Below the pieces are notes generated by a model, which made no database searches, was not told the DNA's origin, and was given only the letters and a program-made list of their open reading frames with translations. Positions 5,994 to 22,991 of a DNA stretch of 64,000 nucleotides are shown one piece after another. The translations under genes were made by a program, and so were the position numbers. Positions within the stretch are counted from its first letter, which is position 1, and every line of letters begins with the position of its first letter. The DNA lies in NCBI RefSeq assembly GCF_031880315.1, contig NZ_CP134771.1:372001-436000 (forward strand), in the 5' to 3' direction. The DNA is from Pseudomonas baltica. GTDB taxonomy: Bacteria > Pseudomonadota > Gammaproteobacteria > Pseudomonadales > Pseudomonadaceae.

Positions 5994-6393
5994 GGGTCTA
6001 CCGTTCCTCGCAAAACAGGACGCGCAGATTAACAGCTTCAAGCGGATCCATGACGTCACACCTCTAGCATGGGCTGCAGGGATTCGCACCACAGTGGCGC
6101 ACCCCAACCAAAAGTTGCGCCACGATGCAGCAGTCCGCGTGCGCCAGACCGATAGAGGGGCAAGCGCAAGAGGCACCAGCGTGCCCACTCAACTCTCTGT
6201 TTATCTGGACTTGAGGCTGCATTCGGTGAATTCTCATGCGTGACCAGCATTAATTCCCTCAGTCGCCAGTAGCGATGACAAAACTGGCAGGCAAACTGCA
6301 ATAGCTGACCAAACGATCAGGTTTTATACTGCCCTCCTCTATGGCCAGCTTGCCAACCTCATCACGTTGTCATTTCAATCACGGTGCATCGCC
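5994..6393. promoter_or_regulatory. Divergent intergenic region between the Lrp gene and hpxO
   Basis: A 400-bp divergent region. A TATACT hexamer at 6325-6330 is a reasonable minus-10 element for hpxO, 64 bp before its ATG, but no good minus-35 is seen at the right distance. The half near the Lrp gene is GC-rich without a clear motif. No small gene with a convincing ribosome site was found. Confidence 0.35.
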
Positions 6394-7587
6394 ATGTCTC
6401 TTTCTGCTTCGACCTCACAGCCTCTGGACATCGTCATCATTGGTGCCGGCATCGGCGGGCTGTCGGCGGGCATCGCCCTGCAGCAACGCGGCCACCGCGT
6501 GCGCCTGTTCGACCGGGTACCCGACCTGACACCTGCCGGCGCTGCGATTTCGGTATGGCCCAATGGCGTCAACGTCCTCGAAAAACTCGGCCTCGGCGCG
6601 GCGATCAAAGCGGCCAGTGGCGAGATGCAGAGCATGAGCTACAGCACCCACGACGGCGCGTTGCTCACCCGCTTCAGCTTGCAGCCGCTGTACGACGCGG
6701 TCGAGCAGCGGGCCTGCCCTATCGCCCGCACCGCCTTGCAGCAGATCCTCCTAGATGGCTGTGGCCGCGACAACGTCACCCTGGGCGTCAGCTGCGAAGG
6801 CGTCGAGCCCAGCGGCGACGGCATGCGGGTAAAGTTTTCCGACGGCCAGCAGATCCAGGCCGACCTGGTGGTGGCTGCCGACGGCACCCATTCGCGGCTG
6901 CGCAACTATGTCGTGGGCCATGAGGTGACACGCGATTACTGCGGCTACGTCAACTGGAACGGTCGCGTCGACGCCACCGACGACCTGGCACCTGCCACCG
7001 AGTGGACGCAGTTCGTCGGCGATCACAAGCGCGTGTCGCTGATGCCTATGGGCAACGGCCAGTTCTATTTCTTCTTCGACGTGCCCCTGCCAGCAGGCAC
7101 CCCCAATGATCGCACCCACTATCGTGACGAGCTGCGCAGTCATTTCAGCGGTTGGGCCGCGCCGGTGCAACACCTCATCGAGCGCCTGGACACCGCTATC
7201 GTCAGCCGGGTCGAAATCCACGACATGGTCCCGACATCCAGCTTCGTCAAGGGGCGTGTGGTGCTGCTCGGTGATGCCGCGCACCCCATGGCGCCGGATC
7301 TGGGTCAAGGCGGCTGTCAGGCCATGGAAGATGCCTGGGTACTTGCCCGCTGCCTGGACGCTGGCGATGTCGACGCTGCCCTCGCCCGCTACAACACCGC
7401 CCGCGCCGAGCGCACCGCGCAGATCATGCTGCGCGCCCGCGCACGCTCGCAGGTCACCCATGGCGGCGTACCGGCCGAGACGCAAGCGTGGTACGCAGAG
7501 CTGGCGCACGAAACCGGCGAACGCGTGATTGCCGGGTTGGTGAAGACGGCCACCGGTGGCGGCGAGTTGCTCAGCGATAAAGGCTGA
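6394..7587 (+). CDS. hpxO: FAD-dependent urate hydroxylase-type monooxygenase
   Basis: Group A flavoprotein monooxygenase of 397 aa. The FAD-binding GxGxxG is DIVIIGAGIGGLSAGIAL at residues about 9-26; the second FAD motif is GRVVLLGDAAHPMAPDLGQGGCQAMED. The protein follows the pattern I recall for Klebsiella HpxO along its length: AAISVWPNGV, GYVNWNG, the active-site block KRVSLMPMGNGQFYFFFDVP carrying the Arg and Tyr equivalent to HpxO Arg204 and Tyr216, and ETGERVI near the end. HpxO converts urate to 5-hydroxyisourate with NADH and O2. I use the ATG at 6394; the upstream in-frame start is a TTG. No other urate-pathway gene adjoins it, although two NodB-fold hydrolases, a fold shared with PuuE allantoinase, lie 5 kb away. 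A related aromatic hydroxylase remains possible. Confidence 0.78.
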   Translation: MSLSASTSQPLDIVIIGAGIGGLSAGIALQQRGHRVRLFDRVPDLTPAGAAISVWPNGVNVLEKLGLGAAIKAASGEMQSMSYSTHDGALLTRFSLQPLYDAVEQRACPIARTALQQILLDGCGRDNVTLGVSCEGVEPSGDGMRVKFSDGQQIQADLVVAADGTHSRLRNYVVGHEVTRDYCGYVNWNGRVDATDDLAPATEWTQFVGDHKRVSLMPMGNGQFYFFFDVPLPAGTPNDRTHYRDELRSHFSGWAAPVQHLIERLDTAIVSRVEIHDMVPTSSFVKGRVVLLGDAAHPMAPDLGQGGCQAMEDAWVLARCLDAGDVDAALARYNTARAERTAQIMLRARARSQVTHGGVPAETQAWYAELAHETGERVIAGLVKTATGGGELLSDKG

Positions 7588-9772: not shown

Positions 9773-10579
9773 TCACTGCCCACCATCCACAGTCACCTGT
9801 TTGATGCCCTGACTTTGCAGGTGCCACTGGTCGAGTACGCGCTGGTAGCTGCCGTCCGCCAACGACGCCTGCAGGCCCTTGACCAATTGATCACGCAGCG
9901 CGTCCTGGCCCTTGGCCACGGCAAAGCCGAAGTAATGCACCGACAACGGCTCGCCCACCAGCACATAGGTATCGGGCTCTTCGCTCATCAGGTATTTGAC
10001 GTACTCAGGCCCCAGTACGGCGGCGTTCAGGCGGCCTTGCTTGAGGTCCAGGCGTACCGCCGCCGCGCCTGCCGCGCCTTGTGCCTGGGCGGCGGGCTTG
10101 CCTGCGCCGACGCAGGTCCTGTCGCTCCAGGCGTTGAGTTCGATGAAGTAATTGGTGGTGCGTGGGCTGCCGATGGCTTTGCCGCAGAAGGCATCGGGGG
10201 TCATTGCCGCTGGAGCATTTGCGCGCGTGGTGAACATCTGCGCACCGGTCTGCAGATAATCGACGAAGGTCATATTGCTGCGGCGGGTCGGCAGGTCGGT
10301 AATGGCCGTGCCGATCACATCGATGCGCCCGGTGGCCAGGCCGCTGGTGAGTTGTTCGAAGCTCATCTCCTCAAACTTGAGGTCGACGTTCATCTGCTTG
10401 GCCAGAACCTTGAACAGGTCGATGTTGAAGCCGGTGCTTTCGTTGGTGGTGGGGTTGCGGTAGGACATCGGCGGATAGGTGGCTTCGATGCCGACGGTCA
10501 GGGTGGTGGCGGCGTTGGCGGCAGTGGCGCCAGAGACGATCAGGGCAGTAGCGAGCAGTTGGGTCAGGCGTGGGGTCAT
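9773..10579 (-). CDS. Periplasmic amino-acid-type ABC substrate-binding protein (SBP-1)
   Basis: Family 3 solute-binding protein of 268 aa. A signal peptide (MTPRLTQLLATALIVSGATAANA, then ATT) is followed by TLTVGIEATYPPMSYRNPTT, the usual ligand-contact strand. It shares with two other binding proteins in this window a Cys pair about 28 residues apart (FCGKAIGS ... WSDRTC) and a VRLDLKQGRLNAAVLG segment. The start at 10579 is supported by AAGGAG directly upstream. It is the last gene of the leftward cluster and follows the PrpD gene by 45 bp across a REP element. It probably feeds the ATPase/permease pair at 14.8-16.4 kb. Ligand unknown; a polar amino acid or amino-acid conjugate is likely from the family. 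Confidence 0.88.
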   Translation of the reverse strand: MTPRLTQLLATALIVSGATAANAATTLTVGIEATYPPMSYRNPTTNESTGFNIDLFKVLAKQMNVDLKFEEMSFEQLTSGLATGRIDVIGTAITDLPTRRSNMTFVDYLQTGAQMFTTRANAPAAMTPDAFCGKAIGSPRTTNYFIELNAWSDRTCVGAGKPAAQAQGAAGAAAVRLDLKQGRLNAAVLGPEYVKYLMSEEPDTYVLVGEPLSVHYFGFAVAKGQDALRDQLVKGLQASLADGSYQRVLDQWHLQSQGIKQVTVDGGQ

Positions 10580-10605
10580 GGGGCGCTCCTTGAGGTCGAG
10601 AATGT

Positions 10606-10632
10606 TCGGGGGCAAGCCCCCTCGCTACAGGG
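10606..10632. repeat. REP element (family 2) overlapping the PrpD stop codon
   Basis: TCGGGGGCAAGCCCCCTCGC followed by TACAGGGG, a member of the short palindrome family also seen near 27434, 42034, 46313, 47990 and 61843. It overlaps the stop codon of the MmgE/PrpD gene, so the last residues of that protein and its stop lie in REP sequence. Confidence 0.8.
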
Positions 10633-11992
10633 GTGAGGCGGTTTGCAGCAGGCCAAGCAGCCGCGGCACATCGGTGTCGGCGCCCAGCGTCATGCACAGC
10701 TCGACCAGGCCATCGACCTGTGCGGTGGGCAAGGCGCGGATCGCCAGCGAGCGAAATTTGTCGATCAAGGCTTCGTCGCTCAGCGGATTGAGTGGGCCGC
10801 CCAGCGCCAGCTTGACCTGACGCGTGGCGCTGCGACCGTCCGCGCTGGTGACCTGAACGAACGGTTCGTCCAGCGGCGCCAGGCGCGGCTCGATGCGCAG
10901 GCTGATGGCCGCCATCAAGCCCTGCACCTCGGGTGCTGCCCTGACCGCCCCCTCGTAACTGTCGAGGCCGGCATTGCCACGCAGGCAGCGCACCGCCAAC
11001 GCATACGGCAGGCTCATTTGCGCGGCGGCCAGGGTGCGGGTGTCGACGCCCGCGCACATGTCCACCAAAAAGGCACTGGCGCGCACATCGATACGCTCGA
11101 CCTGCGTGCCGTCAATGCCGAGCTCGGCCAGTAGTTCCCCGACCGCATCGATCGCCGCGTGGGTACCGCGGCAGGCGGCATAGGGCTTGATCGAACAGCG
11201 CGCGAGCTTCCACACGCGGCCCAGGTCGGCGGTCAGTGCCTGGGGCTCGGCCGCGGCCTGCGCATAGGTGCGCAAAAAACCACCCCAGCTGTCCTCGAAT
11301 ACCTGGCTGGGGCCGCTCATGCCTTGGCGGGCGAGCAGCACGGCGAGCACACCCGCCTCGGCCGGGCGCCCGGCGTGCAGCTTCTTGCTGTCGGCGCCGT
11401 CATGAATGAACGACCACAGGCCACCGCTCATGCTCGCTGCCAACCCGAGTGCATGGGCAGTCTGGTCGGCGTTCAACTGCAGCAGCCGCGCGCAGGCCGC
11501 TGCGGCGCCGAACACGCCACACGTGCCGGTGGAGTGCCAGCCGGCGCCGTTGTGCGGCGAATAGCCACCGCACGCTTCCAGCACGCGCCGGGCCACGTCG
11601 TAGCCCAGCACCATGGCCGTCAGCAAGGCCTCGCCGTTCGGTGGCTTCGCACACAATGGCAGGACTGCCAGCATCGCCGGCACTACCACCGCGCCGGAGT
11701 GATCGCAGCCACCGGCATCATCCAGCTCCAGGGCGTGGGCAGCGACGCCATTGACCAACGCCGCACTGCGCGCCGACAGCCGTTGCGCCCCGCCCCATAC
11801 GGCCACGTCGCCCGGCGGCTCGCTGCACAGCAACGCCCCCAGGCAGCGTTGGGTCAGCTCAGTGTTGGCGCCTGCCAGAGCGGCGCCCAAGGTGTCGAGA
11901 AAGTGTCGACGCGCCTTGGCTACCACCGCCTCGGGGATCGCCGCGAACGGTGTATCGCAGACGAACCCGGCCAATGTGTGCAAGGCATTCAT
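10625..11992 (-). CDS. MmgE/PrpD family protein (2-methylcitrate dehydratase / epimerase fold)
   Basis: A 455-aa member of the MmgE/PrpD superfamily, which includes 2-methylcitrate dehydratase, cis-aconitate decarboxylase and iminodisuccinate epimerase. Visible family blocks are RRHFLDTLGAALAG, AALVNGVAAHALELDD, the alpha-helical GWHSTGTCGVFGAAAACARLL, GADSKKLHAGRPAEAGVLAVLLA, and IKPYAACRGTHAAIDA. The ATG at 11992 gives the standard N-terminus (MNALHTLAGFVCDT) and overlaps the preceding deacetylase gene by four bases (ATGA), showing translational coupling. There is no prpB/prpC nearby, so a methylcitrate role is unlikely. The adjoining C-N lyase and amino-acid transporter favour an epimerase or dehydratase acting on a polycarboxylate. 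The exact reaction is inferred, not shown. Confidence 0.85.
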   Translation of the reverse strand: MNALHTLAGFVCDTPFAAIPEAVVAKARRHFLDTLGAALAGANTELTQRCLGALLCSEPPGDVAVWGGAQRLSARSAALVNGVAAHALELDDAGGCDHSGAVVVPAMLAVLPLCAKPPNGEALLTAMVLGYDVARRVLEACGGYSPHNGAGWHSTGTCGVFGAAAACARLLQLNADQTAHALGLAASMSGGLWSFIHDGADSKKLHAGRPAEAGVLAVLLARQGMSGPSQVFEDSWGGFLRTYAQAAAEPQALTADLGRVWKLARCSIKPYAACRGTHAAIDAVGELLAELGIDGTQVERIDVRASAFLVDMCAGVDTRTLAAAQMSLPYALAVRCLRGNAGLDSYEGAVRAAPEVQGLMAAISLRIEPRLAPLDEPFVQVTSADGRSATRQVKLALGGPLNPLSDEALIDKFRSLAIRALPTAQVDGLVELCMTLGADTDVPRLLGLLQTASPL

Positions 11993-12882
11993 GGGCGCGG
12001 CTCCTGAGCCTGATGCCGGGCAAATACCGCGGCCGGATGATCGTCGGGCAACTGCGGATGCTCGACCGCCCACCACTGCGCGACCTCCTCGGCGGTGGCG
12101 AACCACACCCCCGGCTGCGCCTTGAGCCAACCAAGCCACTCGTCGAGCAAACCGCTGCGGCCCACCGTACCGAGGATTTCCGGGTGCAGGCGCATCAGGT
12201 AGCACAGCCCGAAACGCTGGAAACCTTCGAAGTCGCGCTGCCAATTGAGCAGCACTTCAGCGTAACTGGCGATGCGCGCCTGGCTGGCGGGCACGGCCGG
12301 CGCCAGGTTGAAAGCGAAATACGGCTCGTCCTCCAACTCAACGTGCAGCGGCAGTTCCACCAAAGGCGCCGCTACCTGGCCTGCGGGATGCACATAGGGC
12401 AGATCGTCACCGCCCCAGGATGACGACCAGCGCAGGCCGGCGCTGCGCAGGTCGTCCGCCAGGCCCTGGGCATAGCTGCCCGCCGGTGCGCGAAAGCCGC
12501 GCGGGCGCCGCCCCGTCAAGCGCTCCAGGGCTTCACAACCGCGCAGCACCGACGCCTGTTGCTGCTCGCGCGTCAGCGCGCTGAAGTCCTCATGCAGATA
12601 ACCGCTGCATGCCAGCTCGTGGCCGGCGGCATGCACTGCCGTGACGACGTCGGGATTCTGTTCGGCGACGATGCCCGGCACGCACCAAGTGGTGCGCAGG
12701 CCGTGCTCGGCGAATATCGACAGCAATCGTTGGGCGCCGCGGGTGGTGCCGTAACGCCACACCGAAAGGCTTTTTTCGCGCCCGGCGATTGCTGGCACCT
12801 GGGTCTGAATCCCATGGATATCGTTGTAATCCACCGTAATGACCACGGCGCAGGTATAGGGGGCGGGCCAGGGGCTAGTCAT
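11989..12882 (-). CDS. Polysaccharide deacetylase (NodB-fold) family hydrolase, copy A
   Basis: NodB/CE4-fold protein of 297 aa, of the PuuE-like branch whose characterised members act on C-N bonds of small cyclic amides (allantoinase, cyclic imidases) rather than on polysaccharide. Blocks seen: VVITVDYNDIHG near the N-terminus, HELACSGYLHEDFSAL, RPRGFRAPAGSY, and a C-terminal LMRLHPEILGTVGRS. In the metal motif the first histidine of HxxxH is replaced: copy A has SGYLH where copy B has HGYRH. There is no signal peptide, so it is cytoplasmic. The start at 12882 overlaps copy B by eight bases; the end overlaps the PrpD gene by four. It is a diverged tandem paralogue of copy B. Confidence 0.83.
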   Translation of the reverse strand: MTSPWPAPYTCAVVITVDYNDIHGIQTQVPAIAGREKSLSVWRYGTTRGAQRLLSIFAEHGLRTTWCVPGIVAEQNPDVVTAVHAAGHELACSGYLHEDFSALTREQQQASVLRGCEALERLTGRRPRGFRAPAGSYAQGLADDLRSAGLRWSSSWGGDDLPYVHPAGQVAAPLVELPLHVELEDEPYFAFNLAPAVPASQARIASYAEVLLNWQRDFEGFQRFGLCYLMRLHPEILGTVGRSGLLDEWLGWLKAQPGVWFATAEEVAQWWAVEHPQLPDDHPAAVFARHQAQEPRP

Positions 12883-13723
12883 TGCCGTGCTCCCGCGCCC
12901 AGAATTCGGCGACCTCATTACAGGTGGCGAACCACACGTCGGCATGGCTGTGCATGTGCTGCACAAACTGCTCCAGCACGCTAATGCGCCCCGGCTTGCC
13001 GGAGATCTTGGGATGGAACAACGTGGTCATGCACAGGCCTTCGCGGTAGGTGCCGTCGAACTCGCGGCACCAGTTGTCGAGGGTCTGCTCGTAACTGGCG
13101 ATGCGGTCGAGCCCGGCGGGGTAATTGGGTGCACGGGTATAGGCCAGCGAGGCGTAGTCGTCGAGTTCCCAGCGGCCCGGGATTTCCACCAGGCGCCGGC
13201 TGGCGTCGAGGGTATCAATGAAGTACGGGCGATCGTCGCCGCGCATGCTGCTGGAATACTTCACCCCGCAGTCCATCAACAGCGCCGGGGTCTCGCTGTG
13301 CCAGTCACCGGACGGCGTGCGAAACCCCGTGGCGGTGATGCCCAAATGGCGCTTGAAGACCTCGGCGCTTTTGTCCATGACCCAGCGTTGCTCGGCCAGG
13401 TCGAGGGCGAAGAAGGATTCGTGGCGATAGCCGTGATAGGCCACTTCGTGGCCGCGTTCGAGGATCGCCTGGCACTGCCTGGGCCAGTTCTCGACCACCC
13501 AGGCCGGGACGAAAAAGGTGGTGGGCGTGCGGTGCGCGTCGAGCATGTCGAGCAACCGTGGCAAGGCTCGATAGGGGCCATAGCCGCCAAAGGTGAAGTA
13601 CTCGGGTTTCTGCCAGATGGAACCGTCGAGCATCGCCGCGCCCGTTGGCCCGTCGAGGTCGAACGCCATGGCCACGCAGGCTCGGGCCTTGCCGGGCCAG
13701 CGCAGATCGTTAGAGGTGTACAT
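12875..13723 (-). CDS. Polysaccharide deacetylase (NodB-fold) family hydrolase, copy B
   Basis: NodB/CE4-fold hydrolase of 282 aa. It carries VAMAFDLDGPTG (first metal-site aspartates), GHEVAYHGYRHESFF with an intact HxxxH, GFRTPSGDW, and the C-terminal MTTLFHPKISGKPGR. The HFP/HPK and RTPSG blocks align one to one with copy A, showing duplication. PuuE allantoinases and cyclic imide hydrolases belong to this branch; a ring-opening amidohydrolase in the cytoplasm is the most likely role. It is the first of three overlapping genes (copy B, copy A, PrpD), so these three products are probably needed together. A REP pair separates it from SBP-2 upstream. Substrate unknown. Confidence 0.85.
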   Translation of the reverse strand: MYTSNDLRWPGKARACVAMAFDLDGPTGAAMLDGSIWQKPEYFTFGGYGPYRALPRLLDMLDAHRTPTTFFVPAWVVENWPRQCQAILERGHEVAYHGYRHESFFALDLAEQRWVMDKSAEVFKRHLGITATGFRTPSGDWHSETPALLMDCGVKYSSSMRGDDRPYFIDTLDASRRLVEIPGRWELDDYASLAYTRAPNYPAGLDRIASYEQTLDNWCREFDGTYREGLCMTTLFHPKISGKPGRISVLEQFVQHMHSHADVWFATCNEVAEFWAREHGND

Positions 13724-13773
13724 CGGGATTGCTCCGTGTCATTGGCGAAGATTTGGCGTGCCTGTGACGGCCT

Positions 13774-13845
13774 GTTCGCGGGCAAGCCTTGCTACAGGTG
13801 TACATCCCTTGCACCTGTGGCAGCGAAGCTGGCTCGCGAGAGCGG
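13774..13845. repeat. REP-like inverted pair (family 1)
   Basis: GTTCGCGGGCAAGCCTTGC with TACAGGTGTACA on one side and CACCTGTGGCAGCGAAGC with TGGCTCGCGAGAGC on the other form an imperfect inverted pair. It lies in the 167-bp gap between SBP-2 and the deacetylase genes and may lower read-through or stabilise the upstream transporter mRNA. Confidence 0.8.
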
Positions 13846-13890
13846 TCTGATGGACACCGCCGCTATCGCGGTTGTGTGCCAGAGCGAGCA

Positions 13891-14724
13891 TCACCTCCCC
13901 TGGTTCAACTGCGCCTTGGCGACCGCGCCCTGCTCCAGGTTCCACTTCTTGAGAATCTTGCCGTAGCTGCCATCGGCAATCATGGCGTCAAGCGTGGCGA
14001 CGATGGCCGCGCTCAAGCCCGGATTGCCCTTGGCCACGCCCAGACCGGCGAGCTGAAAGGTCAATGGTTCGCCGATCACCCGATAGGCACCCGACTCCTG
14101 CGTCTGGATATACGGCAGGGTTTCGCTGCCCTGCACCGCCCCATCCAACCGCGCCTGCCGCAACTGCGCACGGGCGTCCGCGGAGCCTTCGGTGCCCACC
14201 ACCACGATCGCCGGCTTGCCCTTGGCCTCGCAGTTGGCGGCGCTCCACTTGGCGATTTCCACCGGGAAGTTCGTGCGGCGGCTGGTGCCGACTTTCTTGC
14301 CGCACAGGTCGGTGGCGACCTTGACGTCCTTGCTGGTGTCCAGGATGTAGAACTGCGGGCCGGTCTTGAAGTAGTCGACGAAGTCCACGGTCTTCTGCCG
14401 CTCGGGGGTGTCGGTCATGCCCGACAGCACGATGTCCAGCCGCTGGGTCACCAGGCCGCTGACCATTTGCTCGAAGGCGGTTTCCTGCCATTTCACCTCG
14501 ATGCCCAGACGCTTGGCGATCTCCATGCCGAGATCGTAATCCACCCCGGTCAGCTGGTTGGTGCCAGGGTCCTTGAAGTCCATCGGCGGATAGTTGGGCA
14601 TGATCCCGGCGGTGATAAAGCCCTTGTCCTTGATGGCGGTGGGCAGCCCGGCCGGATCAGCGGCCCAGGCGCCAGCGGCGGTGAAGACGGACAGTGCTGC
14701 GGTCAGAACGAGCATCTTTTTCAT
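13891..14724 (-). CDS. Periplasmic amino-acid-type ABC substrate-binding protein (SBP-2)
   Basis: Family 3 solute-binding protein of 277 aa with signal peptide MKKMLVLTAALSVFTAAGAWA followed by AD. FITAGIMPNYPPMDFKDPGTNQLTG forms the ligand-binding strand, and DYDLGMEIAKRLG, the usual second block, follows. It has the same Cys pair (LCGKKVGTSRR ... WSAANC) and the ARAQLRQARLDGAVQGSET segment found in SBP-1 and SBP-3. The ATG at 14724 has GGAAG eight bases upstream; a longer in-frame start adds seven residues without a better site. It lies 36 bp downstream of the ATPase gene in the same operon and is the most likely primary receptor of this transporter. Confidence 0.92.
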   Translation of the reverse strand: MKKMLVLTAALSVFTAAGAWAADPAGLPTAIKDKGFITAGIMPNYPPMDFKDPGTNQLTGVDYDLGMEIAKRLGIEVKWQETAFEQMVSGLVTQRLDIVLSGMTDTPERQKTVDFVDYFKTGPQFYILDTSKDVKVATDLCGKKVGTSRRTNFPVEIAKWSAANCEAKGKPAIVVVGTEGSADARAQLRQARLDGAVQGSETLPYIQTQESGAYRVIGEPLTFQLAGLGVAKGNPGLSAAIVATLDAMIADGSYGKILKKWNLEQGAVAKAQLNQGR

Positions 14725-14760
14725 AACGGCTTCCAGAGTCAGCAAACAAAGGGATGGGAA

Positions 14761-15525
14761 TCAGTTGAGTACCGCAGCGATGAATTCCTGGGTGCGCGGA
14801 TTGCGCGGGCTCATCAGCACTTCTTCCGGCGAGCCGGTCTCGATGATCTGCCCGGCGTCCATGAACACCACGCGGCTGGCCACCTCTCGGGCGAAACCCA
14901 GCTCGTGAGTGACCACCACCATGGTCATGCCACTGGCCGCCAGGTCGCGCATCACCGACAGCACCTCGCCGACCAGTTCCGGGTCGAGGGCCGAGGTGGG
15001 CTCGTCGAACAGCATCAGCTTGGGGCGCATGGCCAGGGCGCGAGCAATCGCCACCCGTTGCTGCTGGCCGCCGGAGAGCTCGATCGGGTAACTGTGGGCC
15101 TTGGCCGTCAGCCCTACCCGCTCGAGCAGGTCCATGGCCTGCTCGCGGCATTCCTTTTGCGGGCGGCGCAACACCTGGGCCGGGCCCTCGATGATGTTTT
15201 CCAGCACCGTCATGTGGGCGAACAGGTTGAAGCGCTGAAAGACCATGCCGGTGGCCAGGCGCTGGCGGGCGATCTGGGTGTCGCTGAGCTCGATCAACTT
15301 GCGGTCCACCGAGCGATAGCCCAGCAGTTCGTCGTTGACCCACAGGCCACCCTGATCGACCTTTTCCAGCTGGTTGATGCAGCGCAGCAAGGTGCTCTTG
15401 CCCGAACCCGAGGGGCCGATGATGCACACCACCTCGCCGTGGGGGATGTCGAGATTGACGTCCTTGAGCGCCTGGAAAGCGCCGAAGAACTTGTTGACGT
15501 TGACCGCCTTGACGATATTTCGCAT
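14761..15525 (-). CDS. Amino acid ABC transporter ATP-binding protein (GlnQ/HisP type)
   Basis: Cytoplasmic ATPase of 254 aa powering polar amino-acid-type uptake. Walker A GPSGSGKS at residues 37-44, Q-loop [12 protein letters not shown], signature [15 protein letters not shown], Walker [15 protein letters not shown] and switch VVTHE are all present. The start at 15525 is preceded by GGGGACAC. It lies 12 bp downstream of the permease gene and 36 bp upstream of SBP-2, in one operon led by the lyase gene. All catalytic residues are intact. Confidence 0.95.
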
Positions 15526-15537
15526 GTTCGTGTCCCC

Positions 15538-16413
15538 TTAGCTGCGCTTGCCGGCGCCGCGGCCGAAACGACGTTCCAGGCGGCTCTGGCCGAAGGTCAG
15601 CACCGTGACCACCGCCAGATACCAGATGCCCGCGACGATCAGCAGCTCCATCACTCGGGCGTTGGCGTAGTAGATGTTCTGCGCGTTGTAGAGCAGCTCG
15701 GAGTACTGGATCACGCTCGCCAGGCTGGTCATCTTGACCATGCCGATGAATTCGTTGCTGACCGGCGGGATGATGATGCGCATCGCCTGTGGCAGGATGA
15801 TCCGCCTCAGCGCCTGCAAGCGCGGCATGCCGATCGACTTGGCCGCCTCGTACTGGCCGCTGTCCACCGACAGCAACCCGGCACGCACCACTTCCGAGGT
15901 GTAGGCGCCTTGATTGATGCCAAGCCCGAGCAAGGCCGCGGCGAACGGCGTGATCACCTCGACGGTCTTGAACTCGAACAACCCGGGGATGCTCAGGGTC
16001 GGGAAGATCAACGCCAGGTTGAACCACAGCAGCAACTGCAGGATCAGCGGGGTGCCGCGGAACAGCCACACGTAACCACTGGCCACGTAGCGCAGCACCG
16101 GATTGTGCGACATGCGCATGATCGCCACCACCACCCCGAGGACCACCCCCAGCGCCATGGCCAGCACGGCCATGACGATGGTGTTGAGCAAGCCGAACAT
16201 GATCGAGCGCGCCGTCAGGAACTGCTCCACGTAAGACCACTCGATATTGCCCTTGGCAAATGCCTGGGCCAGGCCCAGCAGCAATAGCACGATGATCGTC
16301 GCCGAGGCGTAGCGGCCGTAGTAGCGACGCTTGACGACCTTGTAGGTCGAGAGGTCGTAGTGGGCGTCTTGCGCGGTCAGCGCCGCAGCGCCAAAAACGT
16401 GAGTCTGTGGCAT
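15538..16413 (-). CDS. Amino acid ABC transporter permease (HisM/GlnP family)
   Basis: Integral membrane subunit of 291 aa. After an unusually long cytoplasmic N-terminus (about 40 residues, including VVKRRYYGRY) come five or so transmembrane segments. The His/Glu/Gln/Arg family signature GLLNTIVMAVLAMALGVVLG and the EAA loop EAAKSIGMPRLQALRRIILPQAMRIIIPP are clear. Only one permease gene exists in the operon, so the channel is probably a homodimer. The ATG at 16413 has GGGGA upstream and lies 17 bp from the lyase stop. Function in uptake is secure; the transported compound is not known. Confidence 0.93.
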   Translation of the reverse strand: MPQTHVFGAAALTAQDAHYDLSTYKVVKRRYYGRYASATIIVLLLLGLAQAFAKGNIEWSYVEQFLTARSIMFGLLNTIVMAVLAMALGVVLGVVVAIMRMSHNPVLRYVASGYVWLFRGTPLILQLLLWFNLALIFPTLSIPGLFEFKTVEVITPFAAALLGLGINQGAYTSEVVRAGLLSVDSGQYEAAKSIGMPRLQALRRIILPQAMRIIIPPVSNEFIGMVKMTSLASVIQYSELLYNAQNIYYANARVMELLIVAGIWYLAVVTVLTFGQSRLERRFGRGAGKRS

Positions 16414-16429
16414 GGGAGTCCCCTGTCGG

Positions 16430-17857
16430 TCAGCCGCGCGGGCCGGAGTAATCCAGCGCCCATTGCTGCTGGGCGCCCAACTGCTGCTTGAAGCGTTCGA
16501 TCTGCGCACTGACCTGGGCCGGCGCGGTGCCGTTCCAGCCGTTGCGTGCCGCGAGCGCGGCCTCCAGCGTCAGGGCCTTGCGCACGTCTTCGGTCAGGCG
16601 CGCGTCGACTTGCAGCAGCAATGCGGGGCTGGCGTCTTCCAGGCCGATACCGGCTTCTTCGCAGGCCTGTACCAGCTTGCCGGTCACTTCATGGGCCTCC
16701 TTGAACGGCACGCCGCGCCGCGACAGCCAGTCCGCCACTTCGGTGGCCAGGGTGAAACCGAGCGGGGCCTGGCGCAGCAGTTCGTCAGTGCGCACCGTCA
16801 TGGTCGCGACCATTCCGGCGAACGCCGGCAGCACCAGGTGAATGGTGTCGAGGCTGTCGAGCACCGCATGCTTGTCTTCACTCAGGTCGCGGTTGTAGGA
16901 CAGTGGCTGGGCCTTGAGCACCGAGAGGATGCCGGTCAGGGTGCCGATCAGACGGCCCGACTTGCCCCGCGCCAGCTCAGCGATATCGGGGTTCTTTTTC
17001 TGCGGCATGATCGAGCTGCCGGTGGCGTAGCCGTCGTCGAGGCTGACCCAGTTGAACTGGCGCGAGGTCCACAGGCAGAACTCTTCGGCCAGACGCGAGA
17101 CGTTGACGCCAAGCATGCTCACCGCAAAGAGGAATTCGGCCACGTGATCGCGGCTGGCCACGGCGTCGATGGAGTTTTCGCACGGGCCGCTGTAGCCCAT
17201 CTCGGCCGCCGAGGCGTGCAAGTCGCCAGTGATGGCGGAGCCGGCCATGGCTGCGGCGCCCAGCGGCGACAGGCTGAAGCGTCGATCCCAATCCTGCAGG
17301 CGCTGGATGTCGCGGTGCATGGCCTGAGCGTGGGCCATCAAGTGATGTGCGAAGACGATCGGCTGCGCCTGCTGCAAGTGGGTGAAGCCCGGCGCAATGC
17401 TGTGCACGTGCTGCTCGGCCTGGGCCACCAGCGCCTTTTGCAGCTCAAGCAGCGCCATTACCAGCACCCGTGCCTGATCGCGCAAAAACAGGCGCATGTC
17501 GTTGGCCGATTGATCGTTGCGCGAGCGTCCGGCGCGCAGCTTGCCGCCCAAACTGCCAAGGCGCTCGGTGAGCAGGCGTTCGATAAAGGTGTGCACGTCT
17601 TCGTCGGCAGCGATCGGTTCGATGCGCCCGGCGGCGAAATCTTCATCGATGCCCTGCAGGGCCTGGATGATCTGGGCGGTCTCAGCCGCTTCCAGCAAAC
17701 CGGCGCGCTGCAGCTCGTTAGCGTGGGCCTTGGAGCCGGCGACGTCATACGGGGTCAGGCGAAAATAAGCCTTGGGTGAGCGCGACAGGTTGGCCATGGC
17801 TTCACTGGGGCCGGTTTTGAAACGGGCGCCCCAGAGGCGGTCGGTTGGCTCGGACAT
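16430..17857 (-). CDS. Argininosuccinate lyase-like C-N lyase (fumarase/aspartase superfamily)
   Basis: A 475-aa lyase that closely follows the ArgH pattern: DRLWGARFKTGPSE at the N-terminus, EDVHTFIERLL, LHSGRSRND-type block LRAGRSRNDQ, the catalytic GFTHLQQAQP (Thr-His pair), and the flexible signature loop GSSIMPQKKNPD with the catalytic serine. ArgH homologues split C-N bonds releasing fumarate; the group also includes EDDS lyase and related aminopolycarboxylate lyases. The context is not arginine synthesis: this gene heads an operon with an amino-acid-type ABC transporter, two ring-opening-type hydrolases and an MmgE/PrpD protein. I therefore favour a catabolic lyase on an imported N-succinyl compound. 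The ATG at 17857 has GGAGAA upstream. A genuine second ArgH cannot be excluded. Confidence 0.88.
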   Translation of the reverse strand: MSEPTDRLWGARFKTGPSEAMANLSRSPKAYFRLTPYDVAGSKAHANELQRAGLLEAAETAQIIQALQGIDEDFAAGRIEPIAADEDVHTFIERLLTERLGSLGGKLRAGRSRNDQSANDMRLFLRDQARVLVMALLELQKALVAQAEQHVHSIAPGFTHLQQAQPIVFAHHLMAHAQAMHRDIQRLQDWDRRFSLSPLGAAAMAGSAITGDLHASAAEMGYSGPCENSIDAVASRDHVAEFLFAVSMLGVNVSRLAEEFCLWTSRQFNWVSLDDGYATGSSIMPQKKNPDIAELARGKSGRLIGTLTGILSVLKAQPLSYNRDLSEDKHAVLDSLDTIHLVLPAFAGMVATMTVRTDELLRQAPLGFTLATEVADWLSRRGVPFKEAHEVTGKLVQACEEAGIGLEDASPALLLQVDARLTEDVRKALTLEAALAARNGWNGTAPAQVSAQIERFKQQLGAQQQWALDYSGPRG

Positions 17858-18032
17858 GTACAGTTCTCCATTGGCACGTAGCTTGCAATTTGCCTTTGTC
17901 GCAAGCCCCTTTATGCAGGGGCTTGTTGGCCACTCTGTGAAGAGTTGCTAAAGGATCGATTAAACAGGTCGCGGTGAATCGACCGGATGAGAGGGATACT
18001 AGAAAGCCGACAGAACGGGGTAAATACATTAA
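17858..18032. promoter_or_regulatory. Divergent promoter region between the lyase operon and its LysR gene
   Basis: A 175-bp divergent region. It holds a perfect nine-bp hairpin, CAAGCCCCT TTATGC AGGGGCTTG, at 17902-17925, and an imperfect dyad CGATT...AATCG near 17957-17983. Either could be the LysR site, though neither is a clean T-N11-A box. The hairpin lacks a T run, so it is not an obvious terminator. Confidence 0.45.
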
Positions 18033-19019
18033 ATGGAAAGTCAACTTTCTCAATCCGCCAATGTACCGAAAAGAGCCAGCGATACTGCACTTTCCATGGC
18101 CACCGCCATGGACCTTAAACTATTCAAAGTATTCAAGGCCGTGGTGGAATCCGGTGGTTTTACCGCCGCACAATCCGAACTCAATATTGGCCTGGCCGCG
18201 ATCAGCAAACAGATATCCGATCTGGAGATTCGCCTGGGCATGCGTTTATGTACGCGCGGGCGCGAGAAGTTCGGTTTGACTGAACAAGGCAAAGTTATAT
18301 ATCAGGCCAGCCTCGACCTGTTTTCGGCGCTGGACGAGTTTCGCGGGCGCCTGGGCAATGTCCGCGGCGAGCTGCTGGGCGACCTGAATATCGCCGTCAT
18401 CGACAACACCTGCTCCGACCCCAACTCGCCGCTGGTGCGCGTGCTGCAGGACTGGCAGGCCAAGGCGCCCAAGGCACGCATGCGACTGAGCGTCGCGCCC
18501 CTGGAAGAGATCGAACAAGGCATCCTCAAGGGCCAGTTCGCCGCCGGCATCGTGCCGGTGTACACCGACAAGCACGAGTTCGAGGTGCTGTCGATGTACA
18601 AGGAAACCTCGGAGCTCTACTGCTCTTGCGATCACTCGTTCTTCAACTTGAACGATGACGAGATCGACGACGCCAAACTCTCCCAGGCCGAATACATCGA
18701 GCATGTCTACGCCAATCACCAGGATAAATTCCGCCCGCTGGGCCCGCGCAACATCAGCGCCATCGCCACTCAGGTCGAGGCCGTAGCCATGCTGGTGCTG
18801 ACCGGGCGCTACCTGGGCCATCTGCCCACCCACTGGGCCAAGCACTACGTCGACCGCGGGCAGATGCGCTCGGTAAAGCCCAAGCGCTTTCGCGTCACCA
18901 CCCCTTTCAAGCTGCTGCACAAGCCCACTGGCCGCAGCAACCCGCTGCTGGATGTGTTCCTCGAAATCCTTCAGCAACACCTGGCCAACAACGTCGCGAT
19001 CCTCGCCAACGGCGCCTGA
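18033..19019 (+). CDS. LysR family transcriptional regulator, divergent from the lyase/ABC operon
   Basis: LysR-type regulator of 328 aa. The winged HTH begins only at about residue 26 (MDLKLFKVFKAVVESGGFTAAQSELNIGLAAISKQISDLE), preceded by a 25-residue Ser/Ala-rich lead; internal ATGs at 18096 and 18108 would remove it, and the latter would give the usual LysR length. The C-terminal two-thirds is the LysR substrate domain (LLGDLNIAVIDNT, FAAGIVPVYTDKHEFEV, LVLTGRYLGHLPTHWA). Its divergent position makes it the likely regulator of the lyase, ABC, deacetylase and PrpD genes. It ends two bases from the stop of the convergent LysR gene. Confidence 0.9.
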   Translation: MESQLSQSANVPKRASDTALSMATAMDLKLFKVFKAVVESGGFTAAQSELNIGLAAISKQISDLEIRLGMRLCTRGREKFGLTEQGKVIYQASLDLFSALDEFRGRLGNVRGELLGDLNIAVIDNTCSDPNSPLVRVLQDWQAKAPKARMRLSVAPLEEIEQGILKGQFAAGIVPVYTDKHEFEVLSMYKETSELYCSCDHSFFNLNDDEIDDAKLSQAEYIEHVYANHQDKFRPLGPRNISAIATQVEAVAMLVLTGRYLGHLPTHWAKHYVDRGQMRSVKPKRFRVTTPFKLLHKPTGRSNPLLDVFLEILQQHLANNVAILANGA

Positions 19020-19021
19020 AT

Positions 19022-19984
19022 TCAGACCGTGGCGTCTGCCAGGGCGGCCGTGGCTTCGCGCAGGCCTTGCAGGAACTGCGCCTCGGCGCGGCTCAGGCGC
19101 TGCTCCTTGTTCCACAGCAGATTGACGTCCACGGTGCACACCTGCTCCGGCGGCAGGGGCCACAAATGCCCGGCCGCGCGCTCGCGCTGATACAACGGAT
19201 GGGGCAGGCAACCAATGCCAAAGCCCGCCAGCACCAGGCGCAAGACCTCCTGACTGTTGGCCGAACAGCCCTTGATCGGCCCACGCCAGCCGTGGCGATG
19301 ACGAAACTCGGCCAAAGCGTTGAGGGTGCCGCCCAGCAGGTCGCTGGTGAACAGGATCAGCGGCTCGTCCTTGAGCATCTCGACACTCACGTCTTCGCGG
19401 CCGAACAACGGATGCTCAGGGCCGCAATAGAAGCGGTAATGTTCACGGGTCAGGCATTCCTGAGCCAGCCAGGGGTAGCTCAGCGGGGTGATCGCCAGGC
19501 CGAAGGTGGCGGTTTTCTGCTCCAGGGCGCTGAGAATTTCGTCGTTGGATTGCACCACGATTTCCACCGCCACCCCAGGAAAACGCCGGTTCAGGCTGGC
19601 CAGGCTGCGATCGTAGGCAGCGCAGCTGATGCCATCGATCGACAGCAGCCGCACCTTGCCCACAACCTGGTCACTGGAGCCCTCGATGGCGGCGTCCAGC
19701 TGGGCGAACTGCCCCTGTACGTCATTGGCGATACGCAGCGTCTCGATGCCGGCGATGGTCAACTGGAAGCGCGGGCCGCGACGCTCGATCAAGGCGGTGC
19801 CCAGTTGCTCTTCGAGCCGCTTGAGCGCCTGACTGACCGCAGGCTGTGACAGATGCAAGCGCACCGCCGCCTTGCTGATGCTCAATTCCTGGGCAATGGC
19901 CTGAAAGGTGCGCAACAGGTTCCAATCGACCCGCTCACTGGAGGAACGCAGGTTCGGTCGTACCCTTCCCAGACTTTTACTCAT
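19022..19984 (-). CDS. LysR family transcriptional regulator
   Basis: LysR-type regulator of 320 aa with a short basic N-terminal extension before the HTH (VDWNLLRTFQAIAQELSISKAAVRLHLSQPAVSQALKRLEEQLG). The effector domain follows (KVRLLSIDGIS, FGLAITPLSYPW, LRLVLAGFGIGCLPHPLY). The ATG at 19984 opens onto a 600-bp gap upstream of the OprD porin gene, transcribed the other way. It is the best candidate regulator of the porin, SBP-3, aldolase and reductase genes. It is not a close paralogue of the LysR gene it faces at 19019. Confidence 0.9.
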   Translation of the reverse strand: MSKSLGRVRPNLRSSSERVDWNLLRTFQAIAQELSISKAAVRLHLSQPAVSQALKRLEEQLGTALIERRGPRFQLTIAGIETLRIANDVQGQFAQLDAAIEGSSDQVVGKVRLLSIDGISCAAYDRSLASLNRRFPGVAVEIVVQSNDEILSALEQKTATFGLAITPLSYPWLAQECLTREHYRFYCGPEHPLFGREDVSVEMLKDEPLILFTSDLLGGTLNALAEFRHRHGWRGPIKGCSANSQEVLRLVLAGFGIGCLPHPLYQRERAAGHLWPLPPEQVCTVDVNLLWNKEQRLSRAEAQFLQGLREATAALADATV

Positions 19985-20584
19985 ATCACTGCTCGTTCAA
20001 ATACTGAATGTAAAAAACAATAATGCGCTGCCCCTCGAGATCGACCCGAGCGTTCTATACAGCCGTTTCCAATAGCAGCACAACGCGCGCACTGAATACT
20101 GCCATAGTTTCACCTTGAAGCGTTCATGATCAATATGAATTGACGGATACTTTAAATATACCGACCAAGATATTGCCCGCCGATGGCGCATAATCTAGAT
20201 TGGCGCCCCAGAATGAAGCAACCTACTCCCAATCTAATAACCTCAGGATAAAATCAATATCAAGCGCTGACGCTGTTTATTTGGCAGACCAATATTCACT
20301 ATAAGAAATGCTTTCTTGCACCTGTCCACTGGCGCTTATAACAATAGATTCAACGCCAGATAGCGCCCCTCCACAAGAGCGATTCAACGCGTCGGTAAAA
20401 GCCCGTCCACCGTGTTTTCAGTGACGCCGTATACGGTCGCCACCGCCCGCCTGCACGCCGCTTTCCCGCCTAAAGGCATGACCGTCCATTGAACGGTCAG
20501 CCGCCCCCCTGTCCGCCAAAGACTGCCCACCCAACTGCACCGCGCGCCTTGCTGCGGTGACGATCGTGTAAAGGAGCCGTTCCA
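19985..20584. promoter_or_regulatory. Long divergent regulatory region upstream of the OprD porin (600 bp)
   Basis: The half next to the LysR gene (about 19985-20340) is markedly AT-richer than its surroundings and carries several TATA-like words (for example TACTTTAAATATACC near 20150). The half next to the porin is GC-rich and includes a perfect seven-bp inverted repeat, TGACCGT at 20479-20485 and ACGGTCA at 20493-20499. AAGGAG at 20572-20577 is the porin ribosome site. No convincing small gene was found; a long 5' leader on the porin mRNA is possible. Confidence 0.4.
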
Positions 20585-21832
20585 ATGAGTGTCAGCAAAA
20601 TCAGTTTCGCCGCCCTGCTCGCTACCGCCTGCACCAGCCCCGCAACCTGGGCCAGTGATCAGTCGGATGCGACGGGTTTTATCGAAGGCACCCATCTGAC
20701 CATCAAGACCCGCAACATGTACATGCAGCGCGACAACCACGCCAAGGGCGCTGCACAGAACTACGGTGAAGAATGGGCGCAGGGCTTCGTCGGCGTGCTG
20801 GAATCGGGCTTCACCCAAGGCGCCGTGGGCTTCGGCGTCGACGTGCTGGGGCAATATGCGATCAAGCTGGACACCGGCGGCGGACGCTACGGTGGCGGCA
20901 CCAACCTGCTGGAAACCGACAGCAGTGGCCCCAAGGACCAGTACGCCAAGGCCGGCGGCGTGTTCAAGATGCGCGTCTCCAACACCGTGCTCAAATACGG
21001 CACGCAGATCCTCTCGATCCCCGTGCTGAGCACCTCCGACAGCCGCCTGCTGCCCGAGACCGTCGACGGTTTCTCGGCCACCAGCAAGGACATCAAGAAC
21101 CTGCGCCTGGACGCCGGCCATTTCACCGCGCTGACCAACCGCAACCAATCGTCCTACGACAGCGGCCGCATGACTTCGGTCGACTATGTGGGCGGCCAGT
21201 ACAAGCTCACCGAGGCGCTGTCGGGCAGCCTCTATTACGCCAAGACCGACGATTACTTTCGCAAGTACTACGTCAACGCCAACTACGTGCTGCCTCTGAG
21301 CCAATCCCAAGCGCTGAAATTCGACTTCAACGGCTACGACACCAAGAGCATCGGCCAGGCCCGCAGCGGCGACCTGGACAACCGCATCTGGAGCCTGGCG
21401 GCCGCCTACAGCATTGGCTCCCACACCTTCACCCTCGCCCACCAACGGGTATCGGGCACCGGTGACTACATCTATGGCCCGGACGGCAACGCCAACTTCT
21501 ACTTTGCCAACTCGGTCCAGTATTCGGACTTCGACTACGAGAACGAAAAGTCCTGGCAGGCCCGCTACGACCTCAACATGGTCGGCTACGGCGTGCCAGG
21601 CTTGACCTTTATGACCCGCTACATCAAGGGCTACGACTTCAAGAGCGGCACCGCTGCCGACCTCGACGGCAAGGCCTGGGAGCGTGACATCGAAGCGCGT
21701 TACGTGGTGCAGAGCGGCCCGGTCAAGAACCTGTCGTTCCGGGTGCGCCAGGCGGCCTATCGCAGTTCCGATCGCGGTGGGCAGATCGACGAGATCCGCA
21801 TCATCACCGAGTACCCGTTCAACATCCTGTAA
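20585..21832 (+). CDS. OprD family outer membrane porin
   Basis: Substrate-specific 18-strand porin of 415 aa. A signal peptide (about 23 residues, ending TWA before SDQSD) precedes GFIEGTHLTIKTRNMYMQRD, the usual first strand of OprD proteins. The middle carries YGTQILSIPVLSTSDSRLLPETVDGFSATSKDI, the L3/constriction-loop region of the family, and the protein ends in an aromatic-alternating strand IITEYPFNIL. OprD proteins import basic amino acids, aromatic acids or other carboxylates. Being followed by SBP-3 and sugar/hydroxyacid-type enzymes, it probably admits an acidic or amino-acid-like nutrient. AAGGAG precedes the start. Confidence 0.93.
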   Translation: MSVSKISFAALLATACTSPATWASDQSDATGFIEGTHLTIKTRNMYMQRDNHAKGAAQNYGEEWAQGFVGVLESGFTQGAVGFGVDVLGQYAIKLDTGGGRYGGGTNLLETDSSGPKDQYAKAGGVFKMRVSNTVLKYGTQILSIPVLSTSDSRLLPETVDGFSATSKDIKNLRLDAGHFTALTNRNQSSYDSGRMTSVDYVGGQYKLTEALSGSLYYAKTDDYFRKYYVNANYVLPLSQSQALKFDFNGYDTKSIGQARSGDLDNRIWSLAAAYSIGSHTFTLAHQRVSGTGDYIYGPDGNANFYFANSVQYSDFDYENEKSWQARYDLNMVGYGVPGLTFMTRYIKGYDFKSGTAADLDGKAWERDIEARYVVQSGPVKNLSFRVRQAAYRSSDRGGQIDEIRIITEYPFNIL

Positions 21833-21965
21833 TCCGGAAAGGCTTTTGCATGGTGATTGGCTCGTTGGTGAATCGCTGGCTGGTGAATCGATAGCACCGT
21901 GCAGACCGCCGGACACGAGCCACGGGCGATGCCTGTGGCTCCCCCTTTCGTGACTGGAGTGACCG

Positions 21966-22835
21966 ATGTTCAAGCGCACGTTTCGTCACCTGAGTACCGC
22001 GGCCATTGGCAATGCTGCCCTGGCCGTCGCCCTGCTTTCGTGCACTGGCATGGCCAATGCCGCCGACACCCGTCAGGCCGCTATCGCCCTGCCCGCCAAC
22101 ATCCTGGCCGCAAAAAAAATCAAGATCGCGCTGTTCGCCGGCTTCCCGCCCATGGCCTGGAAGAAGCCGGACACCAACGAGCTGGTGGGCGTCGACGTCG
22201 AGCTTGCCCACTACCTGAGCAAGCGCCTGGGCGTGGCCATCGAATGGCAGGAGGTGTCTTATGAATCGGCCATCAACTCGCTGGTCACCGGCCGCGTCGA
22301 CATGGCCTTCAGCCTGCTGGACGCCCCGGAAGCGGCCGACCGGCTCGACTATCTGCCCTACCTGACCTCGGGCATGCAACCCTACGCGCTCGCCAGCCAT
22401 GCACCGATCGCCAGCGCGCTGGATATCTGCGGCCTCAAGGTCGGCGCCAACCGGCGCAATGGCTTCGACGCGGCCATGCGCAAATGGAGCGATGCCAACT
22501 GCCTGCCCGCAGGCCTGCCTGCCGTGCAGGTACAAGCCACTGACGGCACCGCCACCGCGCGCCTGGACCTCAAGCAAGGCCGCGTCGACGTCGCCGTGCA
22601 GAGCAGCGAATCGGTGCCCACCAGCATGGCGCTGGAACAAGGCACCTACGTGACCATCGGCAAGCCGCTCAACAGCCTGCAGATCGTCGCCGCGTTCCCC
22701 AAACAGTCCAGCGCCCTGCGCGATGCGGTCAGCCAGGCACTCAAGGACGCCGTGGCCGACGGCAGCTATGCCACCGCACTGGCCAAATACGACCTCGGTA
22801 ATAACAGCGCCGCCAACGCTATCCTGGCCCATTGA
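21966..22835 (+). CDS. Periplasmic amino-acid-type ABC substrate-binding protein (SBP-3, orphan)
   Basis: Family 3 solute-binding protein of 289 aa with signal peptide ending MANA before ADT. The block IKIALFAGFPPMAWKKPDTNELVGVDVELAHYLSKRLG matches the ligand-strand regions of SBP-1 and SBP-2. It shares their Cys pair (ICGLKVGANRR ... WSDANC) and TARLDLKQGRVDVAVQSSES segment. GGAG lies seven bases before the ATG. No ATPase or permease adjoins it; the nearest are those at 14.8-16.4 kb in the same window, so the three binding proteins may share one transporter. It is 133 bp downstream of the porin and probably co-transcribed. Confidence 0.88.
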   Translation: MFKRTFRHLSTAAIGNAALAVALLSCTGMANAADTRQAAIALPANILAAKKIKIALFAGFPPMAWKKPDTNELVGVDVELAHYLSKRLGVAIEWQEVSYESAINSLVTGRVDMAFSLLDAPEAADRLDYLPYLTSGMQPYALASHAPIASALDICGLKVGANRRNGFDAAMRKWSDANCLPAGLPAVQVQATDGTATARLDLKQGRVDVAVQSSESVPTSMALEQGTYVTIGKPLNSLQIVAAFPKQSSALRDAVSQALKDAVADGSYATALAKYDLGNNSAANAILAH

Positions 22836-22991
22836 TAGGCCAGCGGATCAAGCACAACCTGACGTGAAGACCGCGCCTGCCGATGAGCGAAGACACGCAT
22901 GGACGCCCGACCGACCGTCAAACTGCACTGCCACGCTCAACCGCCCACACCTGCTCGATACCTGAGCAGCCACAAGAGGAATGACCCCACC

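Follow-up and report, generated by a model that had tools for sequence, protein, structure and literature searches.

A gene cluster of Pseudomonas baltica may take up and break down an N-succino-guanidine of the argininosuccinate type whose head is blocked or altered, yielding fumarate plus either arginine or a guanidino acid related to it; we give this reading an even chance of being correct. The cluster is located in a 64,000-nucleotide stretch of the 6.63 Mb chromosome (contig NZ_CP134771.1, positions 372,001 to 436,000; the whole stretch is hereafter referred to as the window). It is encoded on the minus strand and comprises, in the order of transcription, an ArgH-derived lyase, the permease and the ATPase of an ATP-binding cassette (ABC) transporter, the substrate-binding protein SBP1, two NodB-fold hydrolases (NodB1 and NodB2), an MmgE/PrpD protein and a second substrate-binding protein (SBP2), with the regulator LysR1 in divergent orientation (Table 1). 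The likely ATG of NodB2 (12882) overlaps with the end of NodB1 (12875), as does the likely ATG of the MmgE/PrpD gene (11992) with the stop of NodB2 (11989). All of these genes and both overlaps had been named in an earlier reading of the window (the original prediction) and were confirmed. Its frame, that of an uptake cluster with a catabolic look and a lyase expected to liberate fumarate, is likewise supported by the sequence comparisons, while the substrate class that it assigned, discussed further below, is probably wrong. Our own proposal is built on the gene set, its conservation, the residue changes of the lyase, two ArgH recruitments and the neighboring genes of some lineages, all of which are read from sequence; from these we infer every reaction as well as the substrate.

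The same gene set of seven or eight genes recurs in other genomes, a check that the original prediction had proposed, and its order is preserved between soil and plant bacteria that are only distantly related. Using NodB1 as the sole marker, which misses clusters devoid of NodB1, a scan of GTDB contigs afforded 61 loci, and a cluster-type lyase was recovered from 57 of them, hence the cluster is not a product of chance. The order lyase-permease-ATPase-SBP-NodB1-NodB2, in part followed by the MmgE/PrpD gene, is repeated in Pseudomonas, Enterobacterales, Caballeronia and Saccharopolyspora. Including both the LysR and the MmgE/PrpD gene, it is found in Pseudomonas, Acerihabitans, Pantoea, Serratia, Erwinia, Prodigiosinella, Rouxiella and Winslowiella; in Rahnella, the contig starts at the lyase. 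One of the Pseudomonas carriers is the laboratory strain FW300-N2E3 of the P. fluorescens group (L063). Clusters resembling that of the window are also present on Burkholderia and Caballeronia plasmids, and on those of Burkholderia the order is conserved. Where Pseudomonas and enterobacterial loci are long enough to show it, LysR1 mostly has the same divergent position; Caballeronia and Saccharopolyspora combine the same enzymes with different regulators. The MmgE/PrpD gene is present in 47 of the 61 loci, absent from 13 (all Pseudomonas) and undecidable in one. Since it is missing from 13 loci, the core consists of the lyase, the ABC set and both NodB proteins; a relative of SBP2 adjoins the cluster in only 6/61 loci. 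Overall, the distribution is sporadic, with NodB1 (E <= 1e-60) in one of 396 sampled actinomycete genomes, namely that of Saccharopolyspora itself, and in 9/198 enterobacterial genomes. In a literature search confined to CC0, CC BY and CC BY-SA papers, no description of this gene cluster was recognised.

The lyase is the most informative component. It carries GSSIMPQKKNPD together with a Thr-His pair and scores 528.3 bits against TIGR00838 (cut-off 279.5), so that it passes the NCBI equivalog rule for argininosuccinate lyase despite the residue losses described below. Its named database matches are labeled argininosuccinate lyase, one of them being marked argH1. The protein is 42–53% identical to the bacterial ArgHs compared, 38% to duck delta-crystallin and 32% to ethylenediaminedisuccinate (EDDS) lyase. 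In a 45-row tree that took 19 of 67 rows of cluster lyases (the window lyase and 66 others), the cluster lyases form a single clade (support 100/99) that is sister to actinobacterial ArgH (100/99), and EDDS lyase falls outside the cluster lyase/ArgH group on a very long branch. Residues were numbered according to duck delta-crystallin and compared between 66 cluster rows (including repeats from the same genomes, among them the window genome) and 25 canonical ArgH rows (the window genome's own ArgH counting twice). The catalytic residues S114, R115, N116, T161, H162, S283, K289, N291 and E296 are unchanged in all 66 cluster rows. In contrast, D33, Q328 and E332, presumed head-binding residues that are all kept in 25/25 canonical rows, are replaced in every cluster row: D33 by Y or F, Q328 by S, I, V, A or G, and E332 by H, N, R, S or T. 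Among the best 120 of 7981 database matches, D33 is Y and Q328 is S throughout, E332 is always lost, S29 is changed to C in 81 of these window-type rows, and S283 is absent in one.

A second type of cluster lyase came to light in plasmids, where NodB1 matched 19 of 72,556 records, including an alphaproteobacterial variant. Plasmids of Rhizobium sp. 11515TR, Ensifer adhaerens and Ochrobactrum quorumnocens encode the order permease-ATPase-SBP-NodB1-NodB2-PrpD-lyase-LysR (the Ensifer ATPase was not among the open reading frames (ORFs) picked). The lyase from Rhizobium shows only 39% identity to that of the window but 52–56% to canonical ArgH of Pseudomonas and Caballeronia, and the Rhizobium and Ensifer lyases are nested within proteobacterial ArgHs (100/99). 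That both lyase types go back to one origin was rejected by an approximately unbiased (AU) test of the constrained grouping (p-AU 0.00037); the group had been chosen with the identities already known, and the tree contains long branches. The rhizobial type, represented by 85 database rows (the matches longer than 440 residues among the 89 of P0241–P0329), is altered around the same site as the window type, with Y323F in 81, S, C or T at position 330 in 84, E332P in 83 and S29C in 84 rows; for comparison, 31 canonical-like proteins keep Y323 in 31, D330 in 29 and E332 in 29 cases. Three of the rhizobial-type lyases (L265, L260 and L266) stand in the cluster context. Common to the window and rhizobial types are the loss of E332 and the change of S29 to C. 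Two independent ArgH recruitments beside the same core suggest an elimination of the argininosuccinate type that acts on a substrate with a different head.

Conceivably, an ordinary ArgH might simply be used catabolically for the salvage of plain argininosuccinate, the head-group changes merely tuning affinity, which we consider unlikely. The cluster lyase shares its catalytic residues, signature, equivalog-level score and descent with ArgH (EC 4.3.2.1), and arginase, ast and guanidinobutyrase genes adjoin the cluster in some lineages, yet plain salvage leaves the two NodB hydrolases and the PrpD protein without an obvious role, and residues invariant in canonical ArgH are replaced in every window-type lyase (D33, Q328, E332) and, with a different set affected (mostly Y323, D330, E332), in almost all lyases of the rhizobial type. 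Moreover, a second, canonical ArgH is already encoded in all 21 host genomes searched, with scores of 592–697 bits compared to 514–545 bits for the cluster lyases; the canonical ArgH of the window genome is 42–43% identical to its cluster lyase. The original prediction had named placement within true ArgH, together with a neighboring argG, as grounds for its own refutation. Only half of this holds: the lyase does group with ArgH, while no argG was detected in any of the 61 loci or 20 wider neighborhoods, in contrast to 7 of 21 canonical argH loci that served as positive control. The window genome encodes a third ArgH-family paralog (L100 1189–2787, C1 ~3348474) of 532 amino acids, which is nearest to EDDS lyase (170 bits) and has a signal-peptide-like N-terminus as judged by eye.

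The remaining enzymes would prepare a blocked N-succino-guanidine for the lyase. NodB1 retains D22, D24, H97, H101, R135 and H237, and hence intact D-x-D and HxxxH motifs, in 61/61 rows. NodB2 keeps D6 and H221 in 62/62 and D9 in 61/62 rows, while in its HxxxH motif the first metal-binding His is A or S in 56/62 rows and the second is H in 54/62. As metal-site residues of NodB2 are altered, NodB1 and NodB2 may act as a pair with one degenerate subunit. Both had been placed in the PuuE branch of amide-opening hydrolases. The NodB fold and several motif residues are indeed shared with PuuE allantoinase and the HP0310-type hydrolases; the similarity to PuuE itself is weak, with 73.4 and 94.8 bits against TIGR03212, far below the cut-off of 424.6, and NodB2 differs by the missing first metal His. 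Among solved structures, the PrpD protein is closest in sequence to iminodisuccinate (IDS) epimerase (136 bits), a comparison that the original prediction had called for. H99 and Y145 are proposed as the bases of that epimerase (PMC7347537). H99 is kept in 47/47 PrpD rows, Y145 is N in all 47, and GCDHSG stands in place of the RGHP motif. Identity with IDS epimerase was rejected on the grounds of this incomplete base pair; from its sequence, the protein is expected to be an epimerase or a related acid-base enzyme that cannot be called IDS epimerase.

In the proposed pathway, the SBP/ABC system would import an N-succino-guanidine of the argininosuccinate type whose amino-acid head is acylated, cyclised or devoid of the α-amino group. 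NodB1 together with NodB2 could then hydrolyze one or two amide bonds, either of a ring or of an acyl group, and the MmgE/PrpD protein, where present, would probably adjust the stereochemistry of the succinyl carbon. Subsequent cleavage by the ArgH-derived lyase would afford fumarate together with arginine or a similar guanidino acid (such as 4-guanidinobutyrate or an N-acyl-arginine), which may be handled by arginine or guanidino catabolism.

Several neighborhoods point toward such chemistry. In Paracoccus seriniphilus, the core adjoins an arginase (288 bits, cut-off 228) and an ornithine cyclodeaminase (571 bits, cut-off 350). In Prodigiosinella and one close relative, astC, astD, astB and astE follow downstream (astA was not identified), and four Erwinia, Pantoea and Winslowiella genomes encode a guanidinobutyrase (closest solved structure 3nio, 520 bits) and a GldA-like iron-containing alcohol dehydrogenase (Fe-ADH) nearby. 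The best NCBIfam match of a thiamine pyrophosphate-dependent enzyme in Saccharopolyspora is the AruI-like 5-guanidino-2-oxopentanoate decarboxylase (367 bits, below the cut-off of 500), nearly tied with an unnamed family. Co-occurrence was analyzed in one even sample of 198 enterobacterial genomes that included the center genome, with statistics that ignore relatedness: guanidinobutyrase is encoded in 5/9 cluster genomes versus 4/189 others (hypergeometric p 6e-6), in four of these five outside the 40 kb around the cluster, and the Fe-ADH in 9/9 versus 14/189 (23/198 overall; p 8e-10). The window genome itself harbors a guanidinobutyrase elsewhere (71%). The GldA-like gene is also found in 11 of the 20 wider neighborhoods. 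This dehydrogenase (E <= 1e-70) is absent from all 57 Pseudomonas-centered genomes, eight of which have adjacent NodB1 and NodB2, and was hence dismissed as an essential partner.

Several observations weigh against the blocked N-succino-guanidine reading. The panel of guanidinobutyrase, arginase, ornithine cyclodeaminase, Ast and AruI-like genes is represented in only 7 of 69 loci (61 from genomes and eight from plasmids), none of them from Pseudomonas. Likewise, it accounts for seven of the 20 wider neighborhoods (guanidinobutyrase in four, ast in two, AruI-like in one); a fifth neighborhood with a ureohydrolase of 40% identity, about 15 kb away, makes eight. As the neighbors vary between lineages, they do not fix a single product. 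No lyase was seen in the 24.8 kb of sequence covered at the Paracoccus seriniphilus core, and the GldA-like Fe-ADH has no role that the proposed pathway explains. Finally, D33 and Q328, the presumed contacts of the arginine α-amino group in complexes of delta-crystallin, are retained in the rhizobial lyases.

The nearest functional analogue is the yxe/scm locus of B. subtilis, which breaks down S-(2-succino)cysteine (2SC) by means of an ABC importer, an acetyltransferase, either YxeK or the lyase 2SL, a deacetylase and YxeQ (PMC9706529); the latter is listed among the database matches of an MmgE/PrpD protein in PMC8752978. Our cluster has the same kinds of parts as the 2SL variant of that locus, namely an ABC importer, a fumarate lyase, an N-deacylase and an MmgE/PrpD protein, and it follows the logic of recovering the parent metabolite and fumarate. 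Compared with YxeK, YxeL, YxeMNO, YxeP and YxeQ, only the ABC set and the MmgE/PrpD protein are alike in kind, as judged by domain content alone. According to PMC9706529, 2SC-type lyases favor synthesis, and the pool of free amino acids is spared when the enzyme acts on an acylated substrate. By the same reasoning, it would be understandable that a catabolic ArgH no longer recognises the usual arginine head. The proposed pathway would thus parallel the recently described salvage of 2SC.

These shared parts could also reflect a locus for the repair or salvage of a different S- or N-succinated amino acid, not arginine, perhaps involving acetylation; this appears quite improbable to us. A gene for a GCN5-related N-acetyltransferase (GNAT) lies just past the LysR gene in 4/69 loci, three from Erwinia/Pantoea and one from B. 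pyrrocinia (Table 1), so that these four may include an acetylation like that of 2SC breakdown, but the conserved set lacks an acetyltransferase and has NodB-fold hydrolases rather than an M20 deacetylase, and its lyase is derived from ArgH. Besides, Winslowiella arboricola harbors both the present cluster and a separate yxe-like locus (L180 3681–12987) with an adenylosuccinate lyase (ADSL)-type lyase, GNAT-like and M20-like genes (these two identified by eye), an MmgE/PrpD gene and ABC genes. The two hence look like parallel systems, and 2SC as the substrate of the cluster was rejected in view of this locus with its own enzymes. Another lyase-PrpD pair, an ADSL-type lyase gene directly followed by an MmgE/PrpD gene, was seen in an enterobacterial genome (L164 5040–7977).

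Catabolism of iminodisuccinate relies on IDS epimerase and a C-N lyase. A natural aminopolycarboxylate resembling EDDS, IDS or aspergillomarasmine, the substrate class favored by the original prediction, is highly improbable here and was abandoned as the leading idea: although an MmgE/PrpD protein nearest to IDS epimerase among solved structures is combined with a lyase from the same fumarase superfamily as EDDS lyase, the lyase belongs to the ArgH radiation by identity, tree position and residues (it keeps H162, Y323 and K331, which are Q, M and E in EDDS lyase, 6rx8), the PrpD protein lacks the Y145 base and the RGHP motif, the NodB hydrolases are extra, and the informative neighbors are arginine and guanidino genes.

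More tentatively, and with somewhat less than even confidence, we suggest an undescribed pathway in at least two phyla that salvages a blocked argininosuccinate-type metabolite, which may be a cyclic anhydride, an N-acyl-argininosuccinate or N-succino-4-guanidinobutyrate, as a source of carbon and nitrogen, and for which a neofunctionalised ArgH would have been recruited at least two times. In that case, many genes named argininosuccinate lyase would not be arginine biosynthesis genes, and an unrecognised pool of such compounds would exist in soil and on plants. Two separate ArgH groups in catabolic-looking clusters lack canonical residues and should probably not be counted as arginine biosynthesis. 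Proteins so far regarded as "polysaccharide deacetylases" and MmgE/PrpD proteins can now be placed in a pathway that is open to experiment and for which only a few substrates come into question as candidates.

Table 1. Genes of the cluster in the window, and GNAT genes next to related clusters (positions refer to the window or to the locus given).
Feature	Position	Strand	Supporting matches
SBP2, second family-3 substrate-binding protein	9773..10615	-	PF00497 101 bits
MmgE/PrpD protein, possible epimerase of the succinyl carbon	10625..11992	-	PF03972 210 bits, PF19305 102 bits
NodB2, NodB-fold amide hydrolase-like	11989..12882	-	PF01522 68 bits
NodB1, NodB-fold amide hydrolase	12875..13723	-	PF01522 69 bits; best solved relative 3rxz 149 bits
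SBP1, family-3 substrate-binding protein, polar amino acid type	13891..14745	-	PF00497 114 bits
ABC ATPase, polar amino acid type	14761..15525	-	PF00005; best NCBIfam GlnQ 327 bits, under cut-off 379
ABC permease	15538..16413	-	PF00528 83 bits; probable start ATG 16413
ArgH-derived lyase, altered amino-acid-head residues	16430..17857	-	PF00206 and ASL_C2; TIGR00838
LysR1, divergent regulator	18033..19019	+	PF03466/PF00126
GNAT gene, Erwinia/Pantoea	L081 3560-4087
GNAT gene, Erwinia/Pantoea	L084 3328-3855
GNAT gene, Erwinia/Pantoea	L086 3904-4431
GNAT gene, B. pyrrocinia	L258 6356-6886

Next to the cluster, the window region 19022–24685 encodes LysR2, an OprD-type porin (by eye), a further substrate-binding protein (SBP3), a class II aldolase and a GhrA-like dehydrogenase. 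No permease of its own was seen for SBP3 in this region, and the protein may feed the same ABC permease as the cluster. Among the 61 loci, LysR2 and the aldolase stand beside the cluster in 14, and the porin and the GhrA-like gene in 12. Beyond the cluster on the other side, positions 6367–7587 encode an FAD-dependent urate hydroxylase HpxO (574 bits, cut-off 500), a relative of which occurs only in the two loci nearest to the window (L037 and L038).

Other loci show variations on this arrangement. A gene for a YdeE-like transporter of the major facilitator superfamily (MFS) is found in 33/61 loci, all from Pseudomonas (more than 50% identity; for example L050 13138–14316), where inspected downstream of NodB2 or the PrpD gene. 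Pseudomonas sp. FEN (L096 10001–11099) harbors a remnant in which NodB1 and NodB2 similarity is continuous, without lyase or cluster transporter and followed by the MFS gene. In genome G085 (L166 8665–11900), NodB1 has a short open frame and the permease is split over two frames, so that this copy may be broken or mis-sequenced. The plasmid of Paraburkholderia PGU19 (L261 9023–21073) encodes, according to the ORFs picked, one lyase and one NodB1-NodB2-PrpD set, surrounded by two permeases, two substrate-binding proteins and two LysR-like genes.

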